A stretch of 39,721 nt of DNA from Butyrivibrio sp. Its GTDB lineage: Bacteria > Bacillota > Clostridia > Lachnospirales > Lachnospiraceae. The notes beneath the pieces were generated by a model. The model was not told the DNA's origin, did not search any database, and saw only the letters and a list, made by a program, of their open reading frames with translations. How positions within the stretch are numbered: the first letter of the stretch is position 1; the number at the start of each line of letters is the position of its first letter. Of the stretch, positions 1 through 13,240 are shown piece by piece. The stretch lies in contig NZ_JAGBLU010000119.1 of the NCBI RefSeq assembly GCF_017635265.1, positions 1 to 39,721 on the forward strand, read 5' to 3'. The position numbers and the translations under genes were made by a program.

Positions 1-15
1 AAAATGAATATATAA

Positions 16-45
16 ATCAATATGTTACATATATAACATATTGAT
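16..45. repeat. Perfect inverted repeat, 12-base arms
   Basis: Arms 16-27 (ATCAATATGTTA) and 34-45 (TAACATATTGAT) are perfectly complementary around the 6-base centre CATATA. The right arm contains the TATAACA heptamer seen elsewhere in this region. It could be a protein-binding site or cruciform; its function is unknown. Confidence 0.65.
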
Positions 46-193
46 GATATGTATATAATTTTTATGTACGGATTTATAAAGTTTGATAAGAATAATGAGA
101 ACTGGCAAAAATAAGCAAATCTATTAAAAGTATATGAAATATATAATACATATATATGGGATTAACTAAGACATAATATTAATAAGTAATAAA

Positions 194-227
194 TATAATG
201 CCTCAGGCCTGCAAACATGGCATTATA
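194..227. repeat. Nested palindrome forming the only GC-rich island of the AT desert
   Basis: Outer arms TATAATGCC (194-202) and GGCATTATA (219-227) are perfectly complementary over 9 bases. Inside lies a second perfect palindrome, CAGGCCTG (204-211). Most of the G and C bases of the surrounding 800 bases are concentrated here. That suggests a conserved binding or processing site, not drift, but its role is unknown. Confidence 0.6.
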
Positions 228-485
228 GTTAAATTGAAGAGAAATTAAGATAAAATGATATATATGATATATAATATTTACAATATAATCAATAACTATG
301 AGAATTCTTATTGAATAATAATATATGATAAATATGATATACAAGTAATATATGTAGAAATCTAAACTAAAAACACATAGATATATAAAATATATAACAA
401 ATATCATATATAGAAAAGTTGTATCGCTTATAATAAGAATGGAAGCATTGCCTATAGATATATTATATATATAGTATAATATATG

Positions 486-512
486 TAATAAATATAATAA
501 ATATAATAAATG
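486..512. repeat. Three tandem 9-base repeats
   Basis: The unit TAATAAATA occurs at 486-494 and 495-503, and with one changed base at 504-512. It is a low-complexity tandem array within the AT-rich region and may be simple slippage, not a functional iteron. Confidence 0.5.
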
Positions 513-630
513 CTTAAAAAACATAATAAATAACATAAATGAATTATGTGTGTTATATAACTCAAATAATGTATAAATAAAAAAATAGAATTGTCATATA
601 AAATAAATAACAGAATGATTATATAACAAA

Positions 631-684
631 TATAATAGATATATTAAATATAATAGATATATTAAATATAATAGATACAATAAA
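631..684. repeat. Three tandem 18-base repeats (iteron-like)
   Basis: The unit TATAATAGATATATTAAA is perfect at 631-648 and 649-666 and diverged at 667-684. The 14-mer TATATAACAAATAT runs straight into the first copy at 620-633; the same 14-mer is at 391-404 and 778-791. Short direct repeats upstream of parA are typical of centromeres bound by ribbon-helix-helix proteins, and of iterons. Which applies, if either, is inference. Confidence 0.6.
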
Positions 685-777
685 TATATGATATGCTAAA
701 TATATCTTTCATATTTATTATTGAAAATGAAATGCTATGTGGATATAATGTTTTAGGAATATAAAAGAGAAATATAA

Positions 778-799
778 TATATAACAAATATATGTTATA
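778..799. promoter_or_regulatory. Inverted repeat next to the parA ribosome site, candidate par operator
   Basis: TATAACA (780-786) and TGTTATA (793-799) form a perfect 7-base inverted repeat around AATATA, touching the ribosome site AGGAGGG at 799-805. A protein bound here would block transcription or translation start of the parA gene, which fits autoregulation by the partner protein. The site is seen directly; the binding protein is inferred. Confidence 0.4.
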
Positions 800-808
800 G
801 GAGGGTGT

Positions 809-1633
809 ATGCGAATTATAGCATTTAGTAATCAAAAGGGCGGAGTTGCAAAAACTACTTCCAGTTATGCTATGGCAGTAGGTCTTTCAAAAAGAGGATA
901 TAAGGTACTTGTTGTTGATGCTGATCCACAGGAAAATCTTTCGATGACAGCTGGAATCGACCTTAACGAAGTTGATCCTGATCCTGAAGATATTGAGGCA
1001 TTAACTCCGGAACAAAGAGAATATTTTGAAAAAAATGTTCCTGCAAAATTATTTGAAGTAATGGCCGGAGATAAGGATATAAATAAAGCGATTATTCCAA
1101 TTGCTGAAAATCTGGACCTTATAGTAGGCGGAATAGATCTTGCATCTGCAGATATGACATTTTCAATGTTAGGACGTGAAAAACTGATTAAAGAGGCATT
1201 TTCAAAAATAAAAAAGGAGTATGACTTTTGCATATTCGATTGCAGCCCTGCATTAGGTGTCGTTCTGATGAATATCTTAACAGTTGCAGATGAAGTAATT
1301 ATTCCTTTGGAGCCCGGGGCATTTTCTTTGCAAGGACTTTCAAGATTATATAAGTTTATAGGACAGATTCACGATTTCACAAATGATAAGCTTAAAGTGG
1401 ACGGAATACTTGTAACTAAAGTAAGAAATACAGCAAACGCCAAAATATGGATAAATGATATAGAAGAAAAAGCAGAACTATTAAAAACTTCTGTTTATAA
1501 ATCAAAAATCAGACTTAATGTATCTGTTGAAGAAGCACAGACAATGAAAATGGATTTGTTTGAATATGCAGGCGGATCAAGTGCGGCAAGAGATTATGAT
1601 GATTTTATAGATGAATTTTTAGGGGAGGAATAA
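809..1633 (+). CDS. parA: ParA/Soj-family partition ATPase
   Basis: A 274-residue ParA-type ATPase that binds ATP and nonspecific DNA and, with a DNA-bound partner, moves replicons or cargo apart. The deviant Walker A motif KGGVAKTT is at residues 10-17, the second aspartate motif VVDADPQ at 35-41 and Walker B FCIFDCSP at 140-147. There is no N-terminal helix-turn-helix, and with its short length this fits type Ib plasmid or chromosomal Soj-like ParAs, not P1/F type Ia. The start is fixed by AGGAGGG at 799-805. The partner gene begins 3 bases after the stop. No replication initiator gene is visible, so a plasmid, chromid, integrated element or chromosome are all possible. The family is sure; the symbol is the generic one. 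Confidence 0.93.
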   Translation: MRIIAFSNQKGGVAKTTSSYAMAVGLSKRGYKVLVVDADPQENLSMTAGIDLNEVDPDPEDIEALTPEQREYFEKNVPAKLFEVMAGDKDINKAIIPIAENLDLIVGGIDLASADMTFSMLGREKLIKEAFSKIKKEYDFCIFDCSPALGVVLMNILTVADEVIIPLEPGAFSLQGLSRLYKFIGQIHDFTNDKLKVDGILVTKVRNTANAKIWINDIEEKAELLKTSVYKSKIRLNVSVEEAQTMKMDLFEYAGGSSAARDYDDFIDEFLGEE

Positions 1634-1636
1634 AAT

Positions 1637-2290
1637 ATGGCAAGTAAAGCTAGCATGTTGAAATCCGGTGTCAGAAAAACAGGAACAGGATTATTTGCAG
1701 GAATGCAGGCAATTAAGGAAGAAGAAATAAAAGAAGACGTAAAAGAAGAAAATAAGACTGTAAAAGAAGAGAAACCATTAGAAGAACCGATTATAGAAAA
1801 AGAAGTAACAATTGAGAAAGCTGTAGAAAAGAATGTTGAAGAAAAAGTTGAGCCGATTCCACAACCTCAGATTCCGGTCAATACATACATAGCACAGCCA
1901 CAGATTCAACAGGAAATTCAACAGCCGGTGCAGCAGTTTGTTCAGTCCCAGCCTCAGCCTCAACCATCGATGGCAGCTGTTCAGTTTGAACAACCAATCA
2001 GACAGAGCCAAAATCAGCCGGTATATGTTCAGCAGGTACAACAGCCGGAAGTTATACAGCAGTCAAAAAGTAAGGCAGTAAAAGGTGAGAAGAGCAGTAG
2101 ATACGAAAAAGAAAAATTTCTTTTATTGGATATCAGAGGCCTTAGAGATTATGTTGAACATATGGCTAAAGCTGCTAATATGTCAGCCACCAAGTATATA
2201 AGAAATCTTATTGAGATAGATATGCAACAAAATATGGATATATATGAGGCTCATAAGGCATTGGAAGAGAGACTGAAAGAAAGAAGATAG
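1637..2290 (+). CDS. Putative ParA partner: Gln/Glu-rich linker with C-terminal ribbon-helix-helix-like domain
   Basis: Not recognised as a named family. The 217 residues fall into three parts. A basic N-terminus (1-23) is rich in Lys and Arg. A low-complexity stretch is first Glu/Lys/Val-rich (about 28-72), then Gln/Pro-rich (about 73-145). A folded-looking end (about 150-217) has a short beta-type segment EKFLLLDIRG followed by two helices, the pattern of ribbon-helix-helix DNA-binding proteins. Position directly after parA, with its ribosome site AGGGGAGG inside the end of parA, indicates translational coupling and a centromere-binding role. By analogy with ParG and omega, the basic N-terminus may stimulate ParA ATPase activity (inference). 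The long linker is unusual, as such partners are often under 100 residues. Confidence 0.7.
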   Translation: MASKASMLKSGVRKTGTGLFAGMQAIKEEEIKEDVKEENKTVKEEKPLEEPIIEKEVTIEKAVEKNVEEKVEPIPQPQIPVNTYIAQPQIQQEIQQPVQQFVQSQPQPQPSMAAVQFEQPIRQSQNQPVYVQQVQQPEVIQQSKSKAVKGEKSSRYEKEKFLLLDIRGLRDYVEHMAKAANMSATKYIRNLIEIDMQQNMDIYEAHKALEERLKERR

Positions 2291-2346: not shown

Positions 2347-2631
2347 TTATTTCTTCTTGCCGTTAACAGCATCCTTAAGAGCTTTACCAGCTTTGAATTT
2401 AGGAACTGTAGCTGCAGGAATCTTGATAGCTGCGCCAGTCTGAGGATTCTTACCTGTTCTGGCTGCTCTCTTGGCAGTCTCAAATGTTCCGAATCCTACG
2501 AGCTGAACTTTCCCCTTTTTCTTAAGTTCCTTTGAGACAGCTTCTGTGAAAGCCTTAACAGCCTTCTCTGAATCCTTTTTAGAAAGACCAGTCTCTTTTG
2601 CAATAGCATCAACAAGTTCTGTCTTATTCAT
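2347..2631 (-). CDS. hup: HU-family DNA-binding protein
   Basis: A 94-residue histone-like protein that bends and compacts DNA as a dimer. It begins MNKTELVDAIAKETGLS and carries the canonical arm signature GFGTFETAKRAARTGKNPQTG followed by the IPA/PKFKAGKALKDAV end, all full length for HU. The start is taken at 2631 because GGGAGG lies about 8 bases before it. A longer reading to 2649 would add six unconserved residues and skip the ribosome site. It is transcribed alone, with a candidate promoter at 2676-2704 and a shared terminator. HU often assists partition complexes and origins, but adjacency to the par genes may be chance. Confidence 0.95.
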   Translation of the reverse strand: MNKTELVDAIAKETGLSKKDSEKAVKAFTEAVSKELKKKGKVQLVGFGTFETAKRAARTGKNPQTGAAIKIPAATVPKFKAGKALKDAVNGKKK

Positions 2632-2852: not shown

Positions 2853-4223
2853 TTAGAGGCTTGTCATCATAGTCTTATATAGTTTTCTAAAAAATATAGT
2901 CGATAATACAAGCGAGGCAAGTTCAGCTATTGGAAAGGCAAACCAGACAATTTCAAGTTGGCCTGTTTGGGCAAGTAGCCATGCGACTGGAATAAGAACA
3001 ACAAGCTGTCTTCCAACAGAGACAATCAGTGAGTAGAAGCTCTTCGAAAATGCCTGGAAAATTGATCCCATAGCAATGCAAATGCCTGCCAGAGGGAATG
3101 AAAGACTTATTATCCTAAGAGCAGGAATACCGATTTGAATCATATCATCTGAAGCATTAAAGAACGATAAAAGTAGCTCAGGAATAGATTGAAAAGCAAT
3201 TGTGCCAACTATCATTATTGATAAAGCAAGAACCAATGAAAACGTTAAAGCTTCAGATATTCGCTGTTTATTTTTGGCACCATAATTATAAGCCAGAACC
3301 GGAATAAGTCCGTTGTTAAGGCCGAAAACAGGCATAAAGAAGAAACTTTGAAGTTTAAAATATACACCGAATACAGCAGTTGCAGTTGATGTAAACGATC
3401 CTAGAATTAAGTTCATAAGATAAGTCATAACAGAACCGATAGACATCATGAGAATAGATGGTATGCCGACATAATATATATCTTTAACAGTGGTTAAATC
3501 GATAGCAAGAATTTGTTTAAAGGAAAAGTGTATTTCTTTATTGTAATTTAAATTGCAGTACAGACCAATGCATGCACCAATACATTGACCGAAAATAGTA
3601 GCATAAGCTGCACCGGCTATGCCAAGCTCAGGGAAGGGACCGATACCGAATATGAGCAAAGGGTCAAAAATAATATTGATTATTGCTCCGGAAGCTTGTG
3701 AGAGCATGCTATAGAATGTTTTGCCGGTTGATTGAAGCAAGCGCTCAAATGTCATTTGAAAAAACAAGGCAACAGAACAGCATGCAATTATACGAAGATA
3801 GGTTGATCCGTAAGACAAAATAATCTCGCTATCAGCCTGAGATTTAATAAAACCTTCAGCAAAGAAAATACCGATAATAAGGAAAAATATATAGTTAAAG
3901 AACGTTAACAATAAACCTGTGTTAGCGGCAGAATCAGACTTCTTAAAGTTCTTTTCACCAAGTGATCTTGAAAGTAGAGCATTAATTCCTACACCTGTTC
4001 CGGACCCCAGAGCAATCATGAGATTCTGCATAGGAAATGCTAAAGTTACCGCTGTAAGAGCATCCTGACCGGCATTAGGAGAAGTACCGATAATCTGTGA
4101 TACAAAAATGCTGTCGACAATATTGTATAATGCCTGAACAAGCATTGATATCATCATAGGTAAAGACATAGATATAATTAGTTTTTTTACGGGCATAACG
4201 CCCATTTTGTTCTCTTTTATCAT
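2853..4223 (-). CDS. MATE-family multidrug/cation exporter
   Basis: A 456-residue membrane protein of the multidrug and toxin extrusion family, which exports organic cations or drugs in exchange for Na+ or H+. Twelve hydrophobic segments are visible in two similar halves. The N-terminal region SMLVQALYNIVDSIFV and the glycine-rich stretch SGTGVGINALLSRSLG are family hallmarks. Length is normal. A ribosome site (AAAGGA) precedes the ATG at 4223. It stands alone, head-to-head with the regulator gene at 4394, and no local repressor is seen. Its closest subgroup appears to be MepA/VmrA-like, but the substrate cannot be told from sequence. Confidence 0.93.
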   Translation of the reverse strand: MIKENKMGVMPVKKLIISMSLPMMISMLVQALYNIVDSIFVSQIIGTSPNAGQDALTAVTLAFPMQNLMIALGSGTGVGINALLSRSLGEKNFKKSDSAANTGLLLTFFNYIFFLIIGIFFAEGFIKSQADSEIILSYGSTYLRIIACCSVALFFQMTFERLLQSTGKTFYSMLSQASGAIINIIFDPLLIFGIGPFPELGIAGAAYATIFGQCIGACIGLYCNLNYNKEIHFSFKQILAIDLTTVKDIYYVGIPSILMMSIGSVMTYLMNLILGSFTSTATAVFGVYFKLQSFFFMPVFGLNNGLIPVLAYNYGAKNKQRISEALTFSLVLALSIMIVGTIAFQSIPELLLSFFNASDDMIQIGIPALRIISLSFPLAGICIAMGSIFQAFSKSFYSLIVSVGRQLVVLIPVAWLLAQTGQLEIVWFAFPIAELASLVLSTIFFRKLYKTMMTSL

Positions 4224-4393
4224 AAATTCATCCTTTGTTAAGAGTTAAATAGCCGTAAAAGTATAACATAATATGTAATTTATGTATATACAAAAAAACT
4301 CAAAAATGCCGTAAGCAAGCGGATTTTTTACTTTAGGAATTATTGAAATAATGATAAAATGAAGCGGGGAAAATGTTTTTAGGGGTTATTGGT

Positions 4394-6013
4394 ATGGTAA
4401 AAGTGTTTCTTGTGGAAGATGAATTTGTTGTTAGAGAAGGCATTAAGAACAATATAAATTGGGCTGCTAACGGATACGATTTCTGTGGAGAGGCATCTGA
4501 CGGGGAAGTTGCATACTCTATGATCCAGAAAGTGCAGCCGGACATATTGATTACTGATATTAAAATGCCTTTTATGGATGGTCTTACTCTTAGCCGCATG
4601 GTCAAGGCGGAATTTCCATGGATAGAGATTATTTTATTAACAGGATATGAAGATTTTCAGTATGCAAAAGAAGCGATAAGAATAGGAGTTTCCAGTTATT
4701 TGTCAAAACCTATAAGTGGAAATGATCTTCTTAAAGAAGTTGGCGCAATATCAGAGAAAGTAGAGGAAAAGAAAGCAGAACGAGAAGCAACAAAAAGATA
4801 TGAAGAAGAGATGAAAGAGCGCAATGAGTTGGATAAACAGGCATTTTTTGGCAAGCTTATCAATTCGAACTATGGTGCTTTTGAATACATAGAAATGGCA
4901 AAAAAACTGTCAATTGATATTACAGCGCTAAAATATAATATTCTCCTTATCAAAGTATGGTCAAAAAAACATGAAATAGGAGAATATTCTAACAGTGTTT
5001 TGAAAATCGAGGAAGGTATAAGAACTATAGCTGTAAGCAACGGAGCAATATGCTTTAACCTTGATCTTGAGGGATTGGCGCTATTATTTAAAGGCGATGA
5101 TGACAACACAATTAGCAGAAACATTGAGATTGCAATTCAAGAGATGGTGGAGCTTTTCAAAGAATATGATAGCATACGTTACTTTGCAGGAATCGGTCAA
5201 AGCGTCAATAGAATAACAGAGATCAGTACTTCTTTTTCATGGGCAAGCAGGGCATATGCTCATATGTATCTTACTTCGGACAATGGATTTATGGTTGGAT
5301 CAGAGGAAGAACTAAAAAATTCGAAAGAAGACGTCATTTTATCAGAAATAGATCCCAAGCATATTGACAGAAAGCTTGTAAAGGAGTTTTTGAGAAGGGG
5401 AGAAATTTCGGAAACGGAATTTTTCTTGGAAGAATTCTTTAACGGCATGGGGAAAAATGCTATCCGATCAACGATGCTAAGGCAGTATATATCTATGGAT
5501 CTGTACTTTTGCGTCACGGATTTTGTTTTAAATGAGCTCGGACTTTCAAGAGAAGAACTGGATGACAGAATAAGTGCTCCCAGTGCAGATGTTTTAGGAG
5601 ATGAGAAAAAGACATTTGATTATATGAAAAAAATAATGAATAAAGCTCTTTTGATAAAGCAGGATAATGCTATTGGAAAATACCATGACATAATGAATGA
5701 TGCTGTTTCTTACATTGAACAGCATTATGCGGAAGAAGAATTGTCTTTGAATTCACTTGCGGCTCATGTTAATTTTTCTCCTAATCATCTGAGTGCTGTG
5801 TTTAAGCAGGAGACAGGCCAGCCGTTTATAAAATATCTGACAGATTATCGTATGGAACAAGCCAAGGACTTGTTATGCACAACCTCGAAGCGAAGCAATG
5901 AGATAGGGGCTTTAGTGGGATACAAAGATCCACATTATTTTTCTTATCTTTTTAAAAAGACTCAGGGACTTACTCCTACACAATATAGAAACGGATTGCG
6001 CAAGGAGGAGTAA
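4394..6013 (+). CDS. YesN-type response regulator (receiver plus AraC-family DNA-binding domain)
   Basis: A 539-residue regulator with an N-terminal receiver (about 1-120; acidic VEDE near residue 9, phospho-acceptor D55 in ITDIKMPFMDG, lysine in the SKP motif). It also has a long middle region and a C-terminal AraC-type double helix-turn-helix (about 440-535; NFSPNHLSAVFKQETG and GYKDPHYFSYLFKK). I chose the ATG at 4394 because AGGGG lies 8 bases before it and family members start at MVKVFLVED. An ATG at 4373 would add seven residues. The kinase gene follows after 5 bases. Such pairs generally respond to extracellular carbohydrate and activate the neighbouring ABC transporter, here that starting at 7480. 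Confidence 0.93.
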   Translation: MVKVFLVEDEFVVREGIKNNINWAANGYDFCGEASDGEVAYSMIQKVQPDILITDIKMPFMDGLTLSRMVKAEFPWIEIILLTGYEDFQYAKEAIRIGVSSYLSKPISGNDLLKEVGAISEKVEEKKAEREATKRYEEEMKERNELDKQAFFGKLINSNYGAFEYIEMAKKLSIDITALKYNILLIKVWSKKHEIGEYSNSVLKIEEGIRTIAVSNGAICFNLDLEGLALLFKGDDDNTISRNIEIAIQEMVELFKEYDSIRYFAGIGQSVNRITEISTSFSWASRAYAHMYLTSDNGFMVGSEEELKNSKEDVILSEIDPKHIDRKLVKEFLRRGEISETEFFLEEFFNGMGKNAIRSTMLRQYISMDLYFCVTDFVLNELGLSREELDDRISAPSADVLGDEKKTFDYMKKIMNKALLIKQDNAIGKYHDIMNDAVSYIEQHYAEEELSLNSLAAHVNFSPNHLSAVFKQETGQPFIKYLTDYRMEQAKDLLCTTSKRSNEIGALVGYKDPHYFSYLFKKTQGLTPTQYRNGLRKEE

Positions 6014-6018
6014 AGCAA

Positions 6019-7347
6019 ATGTTCAGTGGTCATAGGATCAAGCAGCAATCAAAACTGGCTGCTCAGATAAGGCTTTCATATCTTATATTGCTACTACCCA
6101 ATCTGGTATTTATGATATATGCGTTATATAACCTGTTTTTGGTTAGTGAAAGGTATAATACAATGTTGAATTCAGTGGTTACAGCAAGTGAATTCAGCCT
6201 CGATTTTAAGGAAGATTTTGATTACGAAACATATTTGCTGATAGTAGGAAATGTTGCACCGGAGGATTCAAATATACCGACACTTTTAAATGATGCAAAA
6301 GGAGTTGTCGATGGGTTAAAGGGATATACCAACACAGACGACAATCAAAAGCGTCTTTCAAGTGCAGAAAAATACCTTAAAAATCTCGAAATATACATTG
6401 ATAGAATAAACAATAATCTAAAATCTGAAGATAAATATGAGGACAATATGCTCATATGGGAGAATGACGTTCAGATAGTAACTTCCCTTCTTCAAGAGAC
6501 TATTAATGAGTACATCTATTATGAAAATAAGCAAATTCAGGTTGCGCAAGCTAAGAATAAGGAAATCTTTCTGGATATAATAAAGATTTCATTTATAATA
6601 ACGATTGTTATATTTATGATAATTCTGCTGGTTTCATATGTGGGCCCGATTTGGATAACAAGACCTATAGAAGAACAGGTCAAGCAGGAACAGAAACAAC
6701 TCAGGAAGGCTGAATTTGAACTATTACAGGCTCAAATCAATCCACATTTTCTTTATAATACTCTGGATACAATTATCTGGTCGGCTGAAGCAGGGAATCA
6801 GAAGCAAGTTGTAAACATGGTAAAAAGCCTGTCGGATTTTTTTAGGGCATCACTTAATCGTGGAAAAGAGATTGTTACGGTAAAAGAAGAGCTGCAGCAT
6901 GTAAGAAGTTATCTGGAGATACAGCAGATACGGTATCAGGACATATTAAGTTATAAAATTGAAGTAGAGGATACAATTTATGACTATAGTATTCCGAAGA
7001 TTACAATTCAGCCTGTTGTGGAAAATGCACTGTACCATGGAATAAAAAACAAAAGAGGCGGCGGATGCATAACAGTTACAGGTAGGGAATATTCGGGACA
7101 CTTTGAAATCTCCGTAGAGGATGATGGAAAAGGAATGACACCGGAAAGGCTTAAAGATGTAAGTATGGCCCTGAAAGCTGAAAAACTGGAAGAGAAAAAT
7201 GCGGTATACGGACTATATAATGTTAACCAGAGGATTAAACTGAATTTCGGTGATGAATATGGTATGGAAATAGATAGCACATATGACAAGGGAACAAAAG
7301 TTGTAATAAAACTCCCAAAAAACTTAACTGAAATCGTAGAAAAATGA
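6019..7347 (+). CDS. YesM-type sensor histidine kinase
   Basis: A 442-residue membrane kinase. Transmembrane segment one is at about 18-42, an extracytoplasmic sensor region at about 43-185 and segment two at about 189-212. The His_kinase (PF06580-type) motif QINPHFLYNTLD carries the likely phospho-histidine H243. A GHKL ATPase domain follows, with QPVVENALYHG and DDGKGMTPER. A coiled segment EQVKQEQKQLRKAEFELLQ joins membrane and kinase parts. The classical extracellular dCACHE fold is not obvious; the sensor is short and looks mostly helical. It lies 5 bases after its regulator. The signal is probably a sugar or a loaded binding protein such as those encoded at 7480 or 12194 (inference). 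Confidence 0.92.
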   Translation: MFSGHRIKQQSKLAAQIRLSYLILLLPNLVFMIYALYNLFLVSERYNTMLNSVVTASEFSLDFKEDFDYETYLLIVGNVAPEDSNIPTLLNDAKGVVDGLKGYTNTDDNQKRLSSAEKYLKNLEIYIDRINNNLKSEDKYEDNMLIWENDVQIVTSLLQETINEYIYYENKQIQVAQAKNKEIFLDIIKISFIITIVIFMIILLVSYVGPIWITRPIEEQVKQEQKQLRKAEFELLQAQINPHFLYNTLDTIIWSAEAGNQKQVVNMVKSLSDFFRASLNRGKEIVTVKEELQHVRSYLEIQQIRYQDILSYKIEVEDTIYDYSIPKITIQPVVENALYHGIKNKRGGGCITVTGREYSGHFEISVEDDGKGMTPERLKDVSMALKAEKLEEKNAVYGLYNVNQRIKLNFGDEYGMEIDSTYDKGTKVVIKLPKNLTEIVEK

Positions 7348-7404
7348 AACAAAATGAAATGATAATAAAAAAATTAACTTAATTACAGTATTATTGAATT
7401 TAAT

Positions 7405-7475
7405 ATTTCCTCCTGAAATTTAAAATGTGCTTAAGAGGTTGGGAAACCTAAACACAAACTATTTTAGGAGGAAAT
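7405..7475 (+). promoter_or_regulatory. Long-range RNA stem that can bury the ribosome site of the binding-protein gene
   Basis: Bases 7405-7419 (ATTTCCTCCTGAAAT) can pair with 7461-7475 (ATTTTAGGAGGAAAT) over 15 bases, with a single G-U pair and no mismatch. The second strand contains the whole AGGAGG ribosome site of the gene at 7480. The 41-base loop holds a small hairpin, AGGTT/AACCT (7436-7449). If transcription begins upstream of 7405, the ribosome site would be closed. A start after 7419 would free it. The pairing is seen; regulation is inferred. Confidence 0.5.
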
Positions 7476-7479
7476 TGTT

Positions 7480-8475
7480 ATGATGAAGAAAGTATTGTCA
7501 ATCGCCATGGCATCAGCCATGACACTTGGTCTTGTTGCATGCGGAAGTACGGCATCAACAGGCACAACTACAGAAGCTCAGTCTTCTTCTGGAGACCTTA
7601 TTAAGGTCGGGATTATCAATAACGACCCTAATGAATCAGGCTATCGAACAGCCAATGACGCAGATCTCAAAGCAAAATTCACTAAAGAAAATGGCTATGA
7701 TGCATCTTTTGCCTATAGTTTAAAGAATGATGAACAGATTCAGTATGCTCAGACATTTATTCAGGATGAAGTTGATTATCTTCTTCTTTCAGCAGCTGAT
7801 ACAGCCGGCTGGGATTCGGTTCTTAAGGATGCACAGGCTGCAGGAATAAAGGTTATTCTTTTTGACAGAACAATAGATGCGGATGCAAGTCTATATGAGG
7901 CCTCAATCGTATCAGATATGGCAAAGGAAGGCCAGACTGCTGTTGACTGGCTGGCAGGCCAGAACCTTTCAGAATATAACGTAATCCACATTCAGGGTGT
8001 TATGGGGTCAGCTGCTCAGCAGGGACGCAGTGGAGCGCTTGACACAAAGGTTGCTGCAGAAAGTAATTGGAATATTGTAAAACAGCAGACTGCAGAGTGG
8101 AATGCAGAGAAAGCACAGCAGATTGTTCAGTCAGTTATCGATTCCGGAACACCGTTTAACGTAATCTATGCTGAGAACGACGACATGGCAAAGGGAGCGG
8201 TTGCAGCTCTTGACGCTGCAGGCATTTCTCACGGTGTTGGCAAAGATGTTGTAGTTATGGGCTTTGACTGCAATAAGTGGGCACTTGAAGAACTCCTTAA
8301 TCAGAATTGGAACTATGATGGACAGTGCAATCCTTTTCAGGCTAGTTACATTGATGACATCATCAAGACATTAGAGAGTGGTGGAACACTTTCACAGAAG
8401 ACAATCATCATGGATGAGAAGGGCTTTGATGCAACAACAATTACACAGCAGGATGTTGATACATACGGAATCTGA
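7480..8475 (+). CDS. Sugar ABC transporter substrate-binding lipoprotein (YtfQ-like, first copy)
   Basis: A 331-residue periplasmic-binding-protein type 1 lipoprotein. The signal peptide ends in a lipobox LVAC with lipidated C21, followed by a Ser/Thr-rich tether. The core begins VGIINNDPNESGYR, keeping the Arg of the YtfQ motif, and shares GWDSVLKDAQAAGIKVILFDR and QGRSGALD with galactofuranose-binding YtfQ. It is more diverged than the second copy at 12194. The start follows AGGAGG by 8 bases; this site is part of a long stem. A terminator hairpin after the gene would make the binding protein more abundant than the permease. Substrate is likely a furanose or other monosaccharide, not proven. 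Confidence 0.88.
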   Translation: MMKKVLSIAMASAMTLGLVACGSTASTGTTTEAQSSSGDLIKVGIINNDPNESGYRTANDADLKAKFTKENGYDASFAYSLKNDEQIQYAQTFIQDEVDYLLLSAADTAGWDSVLKDAQAAGIKVILFDRTIDADASLYEASIVSDMAKEGQTAVDWLAGQNLSEYNVIHIQGVMGSAAQQGRSGALDTKVAAESNWNIVKQQTAEWNAEKAQQIVQSVIDSGTPFNVIYAENDDMAKGAVAALDAAGISHGVGKDVVVMGFDCNKWALEELLNQNWNYDGQCNPFQASYIDDIIKTLESGGTLSQKTIIMDEKGFDATTITQQDVDTYGI

Positions 8476-8490
8476 TTAAGTAAAAAGAAT

Positions 8491-8538
8491 AAACGCGGTG
8501 CGGCAATGATCCGTAAGGACTACCGTACCGCGTTTTTT
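8491..8538 (+). terminator. Intrinsic terminator/attenuator inside the sugar transport operon
   Basis: AAACGCGGT (8491-8499) pairs with ACCGCGTTT (8527-8535), extended inward by four more pairs including one G-U. Six T bases follow at 8533-8538. It sits between the binding-protein gene and the ATPase gene with no clear new promoter after it. Partial read-through would set a higher ratio of binding protein to transporter. Confidence 0.85.
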
Positions 8539-8560
8539 AAAAGAAATAGAGGTAACGCCG

Positions 8561-10069
8561 GTGGAAGAAAAACAAGTGTTAACGATGCGAGGCATCAATA
8601 AATCATTTCCCGGAGTAAAAGCCTTACAGAATGTGGATTTTTCTTTGAACAAGGGAGAAATACATGCTTTGATGGGGGAAAATGGAGCGGGAAAATCAAC
8701 GCTGATAAAGGTTCTGACAGGAGTATACGTAAAAGACTCAGGTACTATCTGTCTGGATGGAAGAGGGGAAGTGCAGATACATTCCCCACAGGATGCGCAA
8801 AAACTCGGTATCAGTACTGTTTATCAGGAAATAACTTTATGTCCTAATCTTACTGTCGCTGAAAATATGTTTATCGGTAGAGGAAAGGGGCTTTTAACAG
8901 ATTGGAAGTCTATGAATGCTGATGCAGAAAAGCTTCTGCAAAAGCTTGACATACCTGCAAAGGCTACGCAGCAGCTTGCCAATTGTTCTATAGCTGTGCA
9001 GCAAATGGTAGCAATAGCAAGAGCTGTTGACATGGATTGTAAAGTGCTGATTTTGGATGAGCCTACATCTTCATTGGATGAACAGGAAGTATCCAAACTA
9101 TTTGGCCTTATGAGAGATCTAAAAAAAATGGGGGTTGGGATTATTTTCGTAACTCATTTCCTTGATCAGGTTTATGAAGTCTGTGACAGAATCACAGTGC
9201 TTAGAGATGGTCAGTTAGTGGGAGAATACGAGATAAAAGACCTTCCAAGAGTGCAGCTTGTTGCAAAAATGCTTGGAAAAGAAATGGATGATCTGTCTGA
9301 TATTAAAGGTGAGAATGAAGAATATTCCGGGAAAGACGCGGATGAAAAGGTATTTGAGGCATCAAAGCTTCAAAGTGATGCTGGAATTGCACCATTTGAT
9401 TTCTATATCAAAAAGGGTGAGGTTAATGGCTTTACCGGACTGTTGGGATCGGGGAGAAGCGAATGTGTAAGAGCAATCTTTGGAGCAGACAGAGTTATCG
9501 GTGGACATGTAAAGGTTCACGGTAAAGAAGTTAAGATAAATAATCCGTTGGATGCCATGAAAAATGGCATAGCTTACCTTCCTGAGGATAGAAAGGTAGA
9601 TGGAATTATAGGAGATCTGTCTGTAAGAGATAATATTATTCTGGCTCTTCAGGTGCTCACAGGCTTTTTTAAACCATTCAGCAAGGCAAAAGCAAATGCT
9701 TTTGCAGATGAATACATAAAAAAGCTTAATATCAAAACGGCATCTGCTGACACGCCAATCAAATCGCTTTCAGGCGGGAACCAGCAAAAGGTAATACTGG
9801 CAAGATGGCTTTTGATGCATCCTGAATATCTTATTTTGGATGAACCGACAAGAGGAATTGATGTAGGGACAAAGGTAGATATACAAAAGTTAGTATTAGA
9901 GCTGGCTTCAGAAGGGATGAGTGTTACATTTATTTCTTCTGAAACTGATGAGATGTTAAGAACGTGTTCAAGGTTGATAGTTATGAGAGACAGAAAGGTT
10001 GTAGGTGAACTTTCAGGTGAGGAACTTACACAGAACAAGATCATGAGCACAATTGCAGGGGGAGAATAA
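8561..10069 (+). CDS. ytfR: Sugar ABC transporter ATPase with two nucleotide-binding domains (YtfR-like)
   Basis: A 502-residue duplicated ATPase that powers monosaccharide uptake (CUT2 family, as RbsA, MglA and YtfR). The N-terminal domain has Walker A GENGAGKST (39-47) and Walker B LILDEPTSSLDE. The C-terminal domain has a degenerate Walker A (GSGRS), a clear signature LSGGNQQK and LILDEPTRGIDVG, as usual in this family. In the first half the signature is weak (LANCSIAVQQM). It starts with GTG at 8561, chosen because AGAGGT lies 7-8 bases before it and the reading frame aligns with relatives (MEEKQVLTMRGINKSFPG). The permease gene starts 3 bases after its stop. Confidence 0.93.
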   Translation: MEEKQVLTMRGINKSFPGVKALQNVDFSLNKGEIHALMGENGAGKSTLIKVLTGVYVKDSGTICLDGRGEVQIHSPQDAQKLGISTVYQEITLCPNLTVAENMFIGRGKGLLTDWKSMNADAEKLLQKLDIPAKATQQLANCSIAVQQMVAIARAVDMDCKVLILDEPTSSLDEQEVSKLFGLMRDLKKMGVGIIFVTHFLDQVYEVCDRITVLRDGQLVGEYEIKDLPRVQLVAKMLGKEMDDLSDIKGENEEYSGKDADEKVFEASKLQSDAGIAPFDFYIKKGEVNGFTGLLGSGRSECVRAIFGADRVIGGHVKVHGKEVKINNPLDAMKNGIAYLPEDRKVDGIIGDLSVRDNIILALQVLTGFFKPFSKAKANAFADEYIKKLNIKTASADTPIKSLSGGNQQKVILARWLLMHPEYLILDEPTRGIDVGTKVDIQKLVLELASEGMSVTFISSETDEMLRTCSRLIVMRDRKVVGELSGEELTQNKIMSTIAGGE

Positions 10070-10072
10070 GCT

Positions 10073-11140
10073 ATGAATAAGCAAATGATAAAAAAGATAA
10101 CGGGCAATCAGCTCTTTATTCCGCTTATGGCACTTATACTTCTGGCAGTAATAAATCTAGTCAACGACCCGGGTTTTTTTAAAGTTACATTGGGGACAAA
10201 TAATGCGGGAAATCCTGTTTTGTCCGGATATCTGATAACAATACTCGATTATGGCTCGGAATTGGCTATTTTAGCAATAGGAATGACATTGGTGACAGCT
10301 GCGTCAGGTGGACAGGATATCTCAGTAGGAGCAACTATAGCAATTGCGGGCTCTGCAATGTTAAGAATTCTTTGCGGTGGTAATTCCAGACCGGATACAA
10401 TTCAGGCTCCGATAATTGTGGCCTTTTTAGTGGCATGCGTGGTTGGTATGCTCTGTGGAGCATTTAATGGAATACTTGTTGCGATATTTAAGATTCAGCC
10501 TATGATTGCGACGCTGATATTATTTACCGCAGGGAGGTCAATCGCTGCGTGGATTAATAACAATGAGCTTCCGATCGTCCCTGATCCGAAATTTGCATAC
10601 TTTGGCGGATTTATACCGGGAATACCTGTTCCAACTACAGTATTTATCGTAATTATATGCATAATCATAATGGCATTGATTCTTAAATATACTAATCTTG
10701 GTCTATATACGCAAGCTGTGGGAATCAATGAAAATTCCTCAAGACTTAACGGGATAAACCCGACATTTATCAAGTTTTTGACATTTGTTATATTGGGATT
10801 GTGTGTAGCGGTTGCGGCGCTTATAAAGGTTAGCAGACTTTCAACCATCAACTATTCTGTAATAGCAAAAGACATAGAGATGGACGCTATTTTGGCTGTG
10901 GCCCTTGGGGGGAATGCACTTTCAGGCGGGAAATTTAACATGTGGGCTTCAATACTTGGTGCGTATGTGATTCAGTTCCTTACAACAACGCTCTACAAAT
11001 TCAATGTTCAATCTGATGCTCTTGCAGCATACAAGGCAGTAGTAGTTATTTTACTCGTTATTTTCTCTGCACCGACAGTCAGAGAGTACATACGTAGGCT
11101 GGCAAAACAGCTTCCGATGTCAAGAAGGGAGGCTGCATAA
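10073..11140 (+). CDS. ytfT: Sugar ABC transporter permease (YtfT-like)
   Basis: A 355-residue inner membrane permease of the RbsC/AraH type with about 8-10 hydrophobic segments. Family motifs are AIGMTLVTAASGGQDISVGATIAIAG near 75-100 and the cytoplasmic loop region YTQAVGINENSSRLNGI near 213-229, the latter contacting the ATPase. The region DIEMDAILAVALGGNALSGGKF is typical too. It is followed with no gap by a second, different permease, as in E. coli ytfT-yjfF, where the two form a heterodimer. Substrate is inferred from the family to be a furanose-form sugar. Confidence 0.92.
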   Translation: MNKQMIKKITGNQLFIPLMALILLAVINLVNDPGFFKVTLGTNNAGNPVLSGYLITILDYGSELAILAIGMTLVTAASGGQDISVGATIAIAGSAMLRILCGGNSRPDTIQAPIIVAFLVACVVGMLCGAFNGILVAIFKIQPMIATLILFTAGRSIAAWINNNELPIVPDPKFAYFGGFIPGIPVPTTVFIVIICIIIMALILKYTNLGLYTQAVGINENSSRLNGINPTFIKFLTFVILGLCVAVAALIKVSRLSTINYSVIAKDIEMDAILAVALGGNALSGGKFNMWASILGAYVIQFLTTTLYKFNVQSDALAAYKAVVVILLVIFSAPTVREYIRRLAKQLPMSRREAA

Positions 11141-12181
11141 ATGAAAAACACCAAAGAAAAGACAAGTATATTTAACAAAATGAGCGACACGAACCTGCTT
11201 TTAACAATTACAGTCGTTATTTTCTTTTTTATGTACATTGGGGCTGTTTTGTTTCAGGGAGGTGGTTTTACTAAGCCACAGATGTTTTTTAACATTCTAA
11301 ATGCCAATGCATCGCTCATAATAACGGCTTGTGGAATGAGTATAGTTATGATAAGCGGAGGAATTGACATTTCTGTCGGAGGTGTTGTGGCACTTGTGTC
11401 AATGTGCTGCGCGGTGTATCTGGATTATCATGACGGAAGCATCATAGGCTCTGTTTTAATAGCTTTAGGCATAGGTTTGGCTTATGGTTTGGTGCAGGGA
11501 GTTCTTGTAGCATATTTTGATATACAACCGTTTATTGTTTCACTGGCAGGAATGTTTTTTGCCCGGGGAATGACTACAATAGTTAATACAGCTCCATTTA
11601 ATGTCGAAGATCCTGAATTCAATGCACTTAAACTCACCAGAATAAATGTTCCGGGACTTGGTACGGTGAACAAAAAGGGAATATATGTGCCGGCATATGT
11701 TGAAATTGGTGTGTTGGTTGCACTTCTGATTGTGGTAATATTATTTTTAGTACTTCGCTATACAAGACTTGGAAGGAGCTTATATGCTGTAGGTGGAAAT
11801 AAGCAGAGTGCATTGATGCTTGGAATCAATGTTAAAAGAACAAAGTTCTTATCTCATCTTATCTGCAGTATACTGGCAGGAATTGGCGGCTATGTGTACT
11901 TTTTGCATGTAGGTTCCGGTGCCGCAAGCCACGCGATGGGTATGGAAATGAATGCTATCGCCTCATCTATTATAGGCGGAACGATGCTTACAGGTGGTGT
12001 AGGTAATATCATCGGAACATTGTTTGGGGTTCTTTCACTTAGCACAATCCAGAATATAGTTGCATCCGCCGGACTTGATCAGGCATGGTGGACAGGAATT
12101 ACGATTGCTGCTATGCTATGTATTTTCCTGCTTATCCAAAGTATTGTAATGTCTCAGAAGAAAAAGGCACTTAAAATATAA
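11141..12181 (+). CDS. yjfF: Sugar ABC transporter permease (YjfF-like)
   Basis: A 346-residue permease with the same fold as its upstream neighbour: ACGMSIVMISGGIDISVGGVVAL near 66-88, GRSLYAVGGNKQSALMLGI as the ATPase-facing loop, and EMNAIASSIIGGTMLTGG. About 9 hydrophobic segments are seen. The ATG directly follows the stop of the previous gene, so the two permeases are translationally coupled and should be made in equal amount. The charged C-terminus MSQKKKALKI is cytoplasmic by rule. Length matches YjfF. Confidence 0.92.
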   Translation: MKNTKEKTSIFNKMSDTNLLLTITVVIFFFMYIGAVLFQGGGFTKPQMFFNILNANASLIITACGMSIVMISGGIDISVGGVVALVSMCCAVYLDYHDGSIIGSVLIALGIGLAYGLVQGVLVAYFDIQPFIVSLAGMFFARGMTTIVNTAPFNVEDPEFNALKLTRINVPGLGTVNKKGIYVPAYVEIGVLVALLIVVILFLVLRYTRLGRSLYAVGGNKQSALMLGINVKRTKFLSHLICSILAGIGGYVYFLHVGSGAASHAMGMEMNAIASSIIGGTMLTGGVGNIIGTLFGVLSLSTIQNIVASAGLDQAWWTGITIAAMLCIFLLIQSIVMSQKKKALKI

Positions 12182-12193
12182 GGACATAGAGAT

Positions 12194-13240
12194 ATGAGAA
12201 AAAACGCCATGTTAGCGCTGGTACTGCTCCTGCTTTCGGTTACTCTGACCGGATGCGGGAGCAGTGCTGTTAATTCACAAAATAAAAATGAAGAAGCGGA
12301 GATTGGTCAAAATCTGATAACAGTCGGATTTTCGCAGCTTGGAGCAGAATCGGACTGGAGAAGTACGAATACAGAGTCTATGCTCGAAGCACTTTCCCAG
12401 GAAAATGGATATAATCTTATATATAAAAACGGACAGCAGAAGCAATCTAATCAGATTACTGCAATCAGAATGTTTATCCAGCAGGAAGTTGACTATATTG
12501 TACTTGCACCCGCCATGGAGACCGGATGGGATTCGGTTCTGTATGAGGCAAAAGAAGCCGGTATACCTGTAATAATCGTTGACAGACGAGTTGACGTTGT
12601 CGATAAGAATCTTTATTCATGCTGGGTGGGATCTGATTTTGAGCTTGAAGGAAAAAAAGTTACTGCGTGGCTTAAAGCCTTCACCGAAAAAAAGGGTATA
12701 TCTCCGGAAGATGTACATATAGTTAATATTCAGGGAACCATCGGGTCTACTGCGCAGATTGGCAGATCCAGAGGCTTGGCCAATGCCGCCAGGGAAAACG
12801 GATGGGATATATTAGACGAAGTCAGCGGCGATTTTACCGAGACAAGGGGAAGAGAAGTCATGGCCTCGTTTCTTCGCAAGTACGACAATGTAAATGTTGT
12901 GTATTGCGAGAACGATAATGAGGCAATCGGCGCAATTGAGGCCATAGAAAATGCAGGAAGAAAAGTTGGAACCAACATTACAGGTGGTGAAATAATGGTT
13001 GTTTCTTTTGACGGTGTTAATCAGGAGGCTATCAATTACGCCAAAGAGGGAAAAATTGCATGTATTGCAGAATGTAATCCACACCACGGACCAAGAGTGG
13101 CTTCTTTAATAGAAGCCCTGAATTCAGGAAAAACGCCGGATAAGTTTAATTACGTTTCAGAAAAGCTCTACAGCTCTTTTGATGATGTAGAATATGTTAC
13201 AGTAGATGGAATATCATATTTGATTGATGAAGTTGAATAA
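12194..13240 (+). CDS. ytfQ: Second sugar-binding lipoprotein (YtfQ-like, closer to canonical)
   Basis: A 348-residue lipoprotein with signal peptide and lipobox LTGC (C21). It matches the YtfQ galactofuranose-binding pattern more closely than the first copy: VGFSQLGAESDWR, NGQQKQSNQI, LAPAMETGWDSVLYEAKEAG and VIIVDRRVDV. The end, SEKLYSSFDDVEYVTVDGISYL, also agrees. It lies 12 bases after the last permease gene, so one permease core appears to be served by two binding proteins with different specificity, or this copy feeds the YesM sensor (inference). The two copies are distant paralogues, so this is not a recent duplication. Confidence 0.9.
   Translation: MRKNAMLALVLLLLSVTLTGCGSSAVNSQNKNEEAEIGQNLITVGFSQLGAESDWRSTNTESMLEALSQENGYNLIYKNGQQKQSNQITAIRMFIQQEVDYIVLAPAMETGWDSVLYEAKEAGIPVIIVDRRVDVVDKNLYSCWVGSDFELEGKKVTAWLKAFTEKKGISPEDVHIVNIQGTIGSTAQIGRSRGLANAARENGWDILDEVSGDFTETRGREVMASFLRKYDNVNVVYCENDNEAIGAIEAIENAGRKVGTNITGGEIMVVSFDGVNQEAINYAKEGKIACIAECNPHHGPRVASLIEALNSGKTPDKFNYVSEKLYSSFDDVEYVTVDGISYLIDEVE

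Follow-up and report, generated by a model that had tools for sequence, protein, structure and literature searches.

The window analysed here is a 39,721-nucleotide stretch of DNA from a Butyrivibrio sp. (NZ_JAGBLU010000119.1). It makes up the whole of contig C96 in a 151-contig draft genome (G000; 4.15 Mb, 88% complete), and because the window is an entire contig, base 1 is an assembly break. From this break an AT-rich region without a recognised gene extends to position 808. It is followed on the forward strand by parA (809–1633, 274 amino acids), with the ribosome-binding site AGGAGGG at 799–805, and by the gene of a partner protein of 217 amino acids (1637–2290), a candidate centromere-binding protein. 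The GC content is 17.2% for 1–808 and 36.2% for 809–2290. We consider it likely that this locus is the partition half of a Butyrivibrio chromid origin, consisting of ParA, a tethered partner of the ribbon-helix-helix (RHH) type and an upstream repeat array that acts as the centromere.

Residues 1–197 of ParA match Pfam AAA_31 (E 1.6e-54) and the Walker A motif is of the deviant kind (KGGVAKTT), which bears out the family assignment of the original prediction, a reading of the window made from its letters alone. The protein is short, has neither an N-terminal extension nor a helix-turn-helix (HTH) domain, and its relatives by sequence in the PDB are ParA/Soj-type ATPases. Compared with the related locus L063, nonsynonymous divergence (dN) is 0.026 and synonymous divergence (dS) is 1.19; by this measure parA is under purifying selection.

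The partner is unlike a classic ParB, as originally predicted: no Pfam model reaches its cut-off, and a Pfam scan at E values up to 1 gives no match to ParB_N (PF02195). Searching the source genome for the ParB family gives matches on contigs C94, C43 and C74 only. The long low-complexity linker between conserved ends is also there. In the window, the N-terminal 23 residues (1637–1705), a candidate ParA-contact peptide, are followed by a linker of 130 residues, rich in E and then in Q/P (1706–2095; mean predicted local distance difference test score 41–63 per 10-residue block), and by a conserved C-terminal domain (2096–2287). Relatives have the same architecture with an E/Q/P-rich linker of 90–232 residues, and the N-terminus is conserved across this variable linker.

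We searched for the partner protein in 61 genomes: the source genome, 36 others of the same genus and 24 from other genera. It is present in 18 of them, namely the source genome and 17 of the 36 other Butyrivibrio, and in none of the 24. A scan of a named genome collection returned 54 pattern matches, of which 35 were confirmed as loci, all Butyrivibrio by title. No partner relatives were found in the plasmid and viral collections; the lone collection match (E 0.5), a protein with the annotation zinc carboxypeptidase, was discarded. The 35 named loci split into a window-like group 1 (25 loci) and a sister lineage, group 2 (10 loci), whose ParA is 46–48% identical to that of the window. The order parA, then partner, is kept in all 35. 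The pair had been proposed as a variant that Lachnospiraceae chromids may use. The chromid part of this proposal is supported (see below), but within the collections searched the pair is seen only in Butyrivibrio.

The C-terminal domain of the partner may be an RHH dimer. A structural model of a sister-lineage (group-2) partner suggests this fold, and 21 of 30 C-terminal domains are hit by NCBIfam models for antitoxins of the RelB family (best E 4.4e-7). Aligning the C-terminal domains of both groups jointly to RHH_1 with hhalign gives 9.2%, compared with at most 6.7% in 40 column-shuffled controls, which belong to the joint alignment only; taken separately, group 1 gives 25.3%, with no control of its own, and group 2 gives 0.4%. 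The comparison used 17 of 18 PF01402 loci (L168 was dropped because of an internal stop), and a PF01402 search of the source genome found no match.

Several results weigh against an RHH fold in the window partner. Its AlphaFold model has helices at residues 155–198 and 200–216 and no strand, and the full model finds no structural match in the PDB. No profile reaches its cut-off for the window C-terminal domain (RelB: 20.3 bits vs 50), and the RHH_1 match found by hhalign covers 25 columns and leaves the strand out. The structure prediction suggested as a check of the RHH-like C-terminus is divided: the sister-lineage model, together with weak profile matches, favours the fold, whereas the window partner's own model does not show it. 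A PDB sequence search with the partner alone gave no match, and one with the partner alignment gave four low-complexity or helical matches (E 0.6 or worse), which we rejected. Weak Pfam matches among the 30 C-terminal domains (Ned1_M in 14, best 0.0014; DUF6290 in 7, best 0.0032; Rhodanese in 3, best 0.0018) are scattered over unrelated families and were treated as chance.

Upstream of parA the window is dense in short repeats. The 14-mer TATATAACAAATAT starts at 391, 620 and 778, and three 18-mers lie at 631–684, two of them identical and the third with two base differences. The word TATAACA occurs on the forward strand at 32–38, at 393–399 and 622–628 (inside the 14-mers at 391 and 620) and from 780, and on the reverse strand at 551–557 and from 793. 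The 14-mers, the 18-mers and the words in two orientations are all located where they had been reported. The description of the 18-mers as iterons, however, does not hold. They are better read as part of a degenerate 9-bp tandem array with seven forward-strand units at 624–686, which include the 18-base repeats, and three further units of the TAATAAATA type at 486–512. The initiator has its iterons on contig C84, at the opposite end of the origin region. TATAACA occurs 6 times (0.9 expected) in the 800 bases that precede parA; over the whole window the enrichment is mild (16 vs 8.2).

To measure the period we counted 6-base matches by lag in the kilobase upstream of parA and compared the counts with shuffled sequences. 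Two loci, L068 and L091, were omitted because they have just 172 and 82 bp of sequence upstream of parA, respectively. In window positions 1–808, 27 matches occur at lag 9 (3.4 expected) and 37 at lag 18 (3.5 expected), counts that none of 300 first-order shuffles reached in either case. Group 1 as a whole shows 441 matches vs 59.6 expected at lag 9, exceeding two standard deviations in 25 of 25 loci, with harmonics at 18, 27, 36 and 45. In group 2 the period is 8 bp instead (115 vs 17.3 at lag 8; more than two standard deviations in 7 of 8 loci), with harmonics from 16 to 56. Second-order shuffles, applied to the same loci plus L095 and BPc2, the chromid of B. proteoclasticus B316, yield the same picture: 454 vs 96.5 for lag 9 in group 1 (24 of 26) and 126 vs 23.6 for lag 8 in group 2 (8 of 9). 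Under these shuffles the cross-lags are not enriched (lag 8 in group 1, 51 vs 106.9; lag 9 in group 2, 11 vs 22.5).

The words differ together with the periods. Word counts covered 26 group-1 and 9 group-2 loci, with L095 left out. TATAACA is above expectation in all 26 group-1 regions, including L068, which has one copy in its 172 bp. ACATCAT is above expectation in all 8 testable group-2 regions, where TATAACA occurs 0–4 times vs 0.8–1.5 expected. An expectation-maximisation position weight matrix for group 1 collapsed onto plain AT-richness and was not used. A third kind of element, the GC palindrome GGCCACSGTGGCC, is found near parA of two B. fibrisolvens replicons with an HTH ParB (1 and 3 exact copies); none of the 35 regions upstream of parA in groups 1 and 2 contains it. 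On two partner lineages and the HTH case, array type thus appears to follow partner type. Because array type tracks the partner lineage, the upstream repeats are probably the centromere, distinct from the Rep iterons, which makes positions 1–808 a candidate centromere in the parA-proximal part of the origin region.

An inverted repeat, TATAACA-N6-TGTTATA (780–799), abuts the parA ribosome-binding site and is a candidate operator or partner site. With at most 2 mismatches of 14, this leader repeat is present in 11 of 27 group-1 loci (expected fraction 0.004). Taken with the RelB matches, it could point to a partner that acts as a transcriptional repressor of the RelB/RHH type or as an orphan antitoxin, cotranscribed with ParA and without a role in segregation. 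We regard this as very unlikely. All 35 loci pair the partner with ParA and 31 place it beside an initiator, its N-terminus is conserved across the linker, and an array of about 1 kb exceeds an operator. Furthermore, no toxin-like neighbour was noticed in the open reading frame listings of 17 loci, in which no dedicated toxin search was made; the recognised neighbours are ParA, HU, MATE and Rep.

In group 1 the array faces a replication initiator. A Rep_3 initiator gene (PF01051 and PF21205) is divergent from parA in 21 of 25 loci, across a gap of 2.2–4.8 kb with a GC content of 20.6–28.4%; the contigs of the remaining four stop within 850 bp upstream of parA. A DUF815 AAA+ ATPase gene (PF05673) follows rep in 21 of the 25 loci (for example L042:15758-17059). 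The 21 regions between rep and parA contain 9–16 iteron matches of the TTCCCTTTTTTGTCACCT type on one strand and no more than one on the opposite strand. All 10 group-2 loci have the initiator downstream of the partner, and repeats of the TAGTAGTTTTTGGG type, which we take to be the Rep iterons, fill a separate gap of 845–955 bp between partner and rep. A search for the pair next to replication genes had been proposed as a check, and it finds pair and initiator together in 31 of 35 loci.

The 808 bp of the window contain no TTCCCTTTTTTGTCACCT-type iteron match. The sole initiator match in the source genome is located near the end of contig C84 and is 91% identical to the L042 initiator. Between its start codon and the end of the contig lie 2,291 bp with 15 iteron matches on the same strand (14 without one overlap). 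GC skew per 10 kb is −0.12 to −0.19 on C84 and +0.08 to +0.18 in the window. The skew flips sign between the contigs, as two sides of one origin should; on this reading the left end of the window breaks within a replication origin and the other half is on C84. The two pieces, 2,291 and 808 bp, together fall 130–350 bp short of the rep–parA gap in the closest relatives L063, L064 and L082 (3,233–3,445 bp).

Placed in such a gap, a very AT-rich array with an HU gene nearby might instead be the DNA-unwinding element of a Rep-driven origin, or an HU-binding region, with the partner's sites elsewhere. We think this unlikely, although less so than the repressor or antitoxin alternative. The 8-bp array of group 2 precedes parA, whereas Rep, with iterons of its own, is found on the far side of the partner gene. 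The 9-bp signal of group 1 weakens with increasing distance from parA: z falls through 16.9, 12.7, 5.5, 3.5, 1.8 and 0.0 in successive 500-bp bins, so that the period peaks in the first kilobase and has sunk to background at about 2.5 kb. In 22 group-1 regions the kilobase next to Rep has spacings of 22, 23 and 31 bp in place of 9, and in group 2 the main 8-bp signal lies within 1.5 kb of parA. An unwinding element would presumably need no species-specific register of 8 or 9 bp.

Some observations do not fit neatly with the upstream array as a centromere matched to its partner. Group 1 is also raised at lags 7, 11, 16, 25 and 29 (z 7–9), more weakly than at lag 9, and in group 2 the 8-bp period recurs, less strongly, 2–3 kb upstream (z 4.5 and 2.4). 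The match between array and partner comes from two partner lineages only, between which Rep differs as well. The leader inverted repeat is found in just those 11 of 27 loci and is absent from BPc2. Finally, a Rep_3 relative at L152 (G033:C21), 47% identical to the group-2 initiator, has no match to the reference ParA, partner or ParB within 19.9 kb. Some match to this initiator family occurs in 50 of 79 genomes of the genus, but, as L152 illustrates, the par module does not accompany it everywhere.

The replicon itself is best seen in a relative. BPc2 of B. proteoclasticus B316 is a chromid of 302,358 bp according to PMC2914790. Genome G069 consists of four contigs, of which contig 2 has the same length and carries the same origin gene order; the initiator matches of this genome on contigs 3 and 4 share coordinates with those on pCY360 and pCY186. 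Contig 2 would then be BPc2. On this replicon Rep starts at base 1 and the parA–partner pair lies at the end of the record, with 3,455 bp between them, and cumulative GC skew has its minimum at base 1 and its maximum at 165 kb. On this large secondary replicon a plasmid-type initiator and partition genes thus coincide with the skew minimum. There are 98 TATAACA words on the replicon, 10 of them in the rep–parA gap, and the densest kilobase (9 copies, in 250-bp steps) is directly upstream of parA, while 12 of 15 iteron matches fall at 301,210–302,211. Stretches near 62.5–64.7 kb are devoid of G and C, presumably through masking. From synteny and skew we infer a chromid location in the window's own strain as well. 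Six large draft contigs show no terminal overlap in a check for circularity; hence the case for a separate replicon rests on the B316-like genome.

The window is a 39.7-kb contig and the genome's only Rep match is on another one, so the pair could in principle be a plasmid remnant, degraded or integrated, within the main chromosome. We judge this most improbable. ParA is under purifying selection, no stop interrupts the partner among the matches listed, and the matching locus of the B316-like relative is on a 302-kb replicon. In addition, a strong ParB (113–120 bits) is present in 7 of 7 relatives checked, and in the B316-like genome it is on contig C1, the partner on C2. The source draft, at 88% completeness, contains no ParB as strong as this one. 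It has three further parA–parB pairs with a canonical ParB, on C94, C74 and C43 (74–83 bits).

Butyrivibrio chromids carry core genes according to PMC5716241. According to PMC6912079, FD2007 alone among the genomes of its set has a chromid resembling the one in B316; chromid gene content therefore varies more than the origin module. In B. fibrisolvens, repA, parB and hbs have been reported together at the skew switch of the chromid (PMC6249431). The coarse anatomy of the origin was therefore already known; this parB would be of the HTH type, as pNP243 suggests.

How might such a locus work? ParA, a short Walker ATPase similar to type Ib, would coat the nucleoid. The C-terminal domain of the partner would bind the 9-bp, TATAACA-containing AT array upstream of parA, and partner dimers would line up on contiguous repeats as in pSM19035. 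The N-terminus, on its disordered tether of 130 residues, would contact nucleoid-bound ParA and stimulate ATP hydrolysis, so that chromid copies follow a receding ParA gradient. A long tether may enlarge the volume within which dimers on a 1-kb array can reach ParA and so compensate for absent spreading. Because the inverted repeat sits at the parA ribosome-binding site, the partner may also act as a repressor of its own operon in the loci that have this repeat. We infer the RHH fold in the window partner, DNA binding, ParA contact, autoregulation and segregation, and the biochemical steps by analogy with pSM19035 (PMC9499535).

The original prediction likened the locus to type Ib plasmid partition with an extended tether. 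The conserved ParA–partner pair, the linker and an array at a chromid origin stand; the RHH fold is less secure and the iteron reading has been replaced. The module is apparently a variant of ParA–RHH-type partition. The Omega protein of pSM19035 is small and has a short N-terminal arm. As is proposed for the window locus, the delta/omega system of this plasmid combines ParA and an RHH partner with a centromere of short repeats, described in PMC9499535 as the 7-bp WATCACW in 7–10 copies per site that overlap par gene promoters; the same source has RHH partners contact ParA through the N-terminus. Unlike pSM19035, the window family has 90–232 residues between N-terminus and C-terminal domain, a repeat period of 9 or 8 bp over about 1 kb, and a chromid as its replicon. 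ParF–ParG of TP228 (type Ib) differs in that the ParG chain has 76 residues and no long linker, and we found no sequence match between ParG and the partner. The partners of two close plasmid ParAs (pNP21 and E. faecium) show no significant similarity to the window partner either. That of B. fibrisolvens pNP21 (L175:812-1159) has 115 residues, with a charged, low-complexity N-terminal half and a weak terminal RHH_1 match (E 0.13); it is possibly a short-tether analogue. SegB belongs to the RHH class. SegAB of Sulfolobales chromosomes, archaeal and likened here by description only, is presented in PMC12284271 as a minimal two-protein machine for chromosome partition.

Two B. fibrisolvens replicons, NZ_CP146964.1 and G068:C2 (L100, L153), carry a related Rep_3 initiator, a distant HTH ParAB module and GC palindromes. 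The HTH ParABS systems of pNP243 and G068:C2 share with window-type loci a related Rep_3 initiator (32–35% identity), ParA and HU within about 4 kb, and pNP243 also shares HypA. They differ in their partner, a canonical ParB/Spo0J, in a ParA that is only 25% identical, and in the GC palindrome near parA. From these comparisons, par modules have apparently been exchanged between chromid lineages.

On balance, we lean towards a broader proposal. A Butyrivibrio second chromosome would be segregated without spreading of an HTH ParB, by an RHH-type protein that carries its ParA-activating end on a disordered tether of 90–232 residues and binds a kilobase array of 8- or 9-bp sites. Tether and array would take the place of spreading in offering ParA many contacts, and chromid lineages with a related initiator would have exchanged HTH and RHH modules along with the centromeres that fit them. 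The locus then offers a natural test, since an RHH-type partner apparently serves a replicon of about 300 kb, and the two sister versions, with 9-bp and 8-bp arrays, could be swapped and their linkers shortened. A further suggestion is that par modules differing in fold have been exchanged at the origins of related chromids. The literature on RHH and chromid partition and on Butyrivibrio partition or centromeres yielded no earlier description of this module; the par locus may be described in a study of the B316 episomes (Yeoman et al. 2011, Plasmid 66:67).

Downstream of the pair, the window continues with a convergent gene for an HU-family DNA-binding protein (2347–2631, reverse strand), matched in 19 of 25 group-1 loci, and a MATE-type transporter gene (2853–4223, reverse strand) that is a conserved neighbour in the group-1 synteny block. 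On the BPc2-like replicon, a gene for a 1,409-residue protein lies between partner and HU (L148:2631-6860). The draft contains a second partner–HU–MATE block (L030; G000:C135:1-6000), which matches L049 (from strain NC2007, judging by the contig) at 94.9% identity over 5,997 bp and resembles the window only around HU (88.9% over 423 bp). This contig probably belongs to another Butyrivibrio within draft G000. Beside the origin, window positions 4373–13240 encode, as far as inspection of the translations by eye can tell, a response regulator, a sensor kinase and a cluster for an ABC transporter of the sugar type; a similar block is present in L042.

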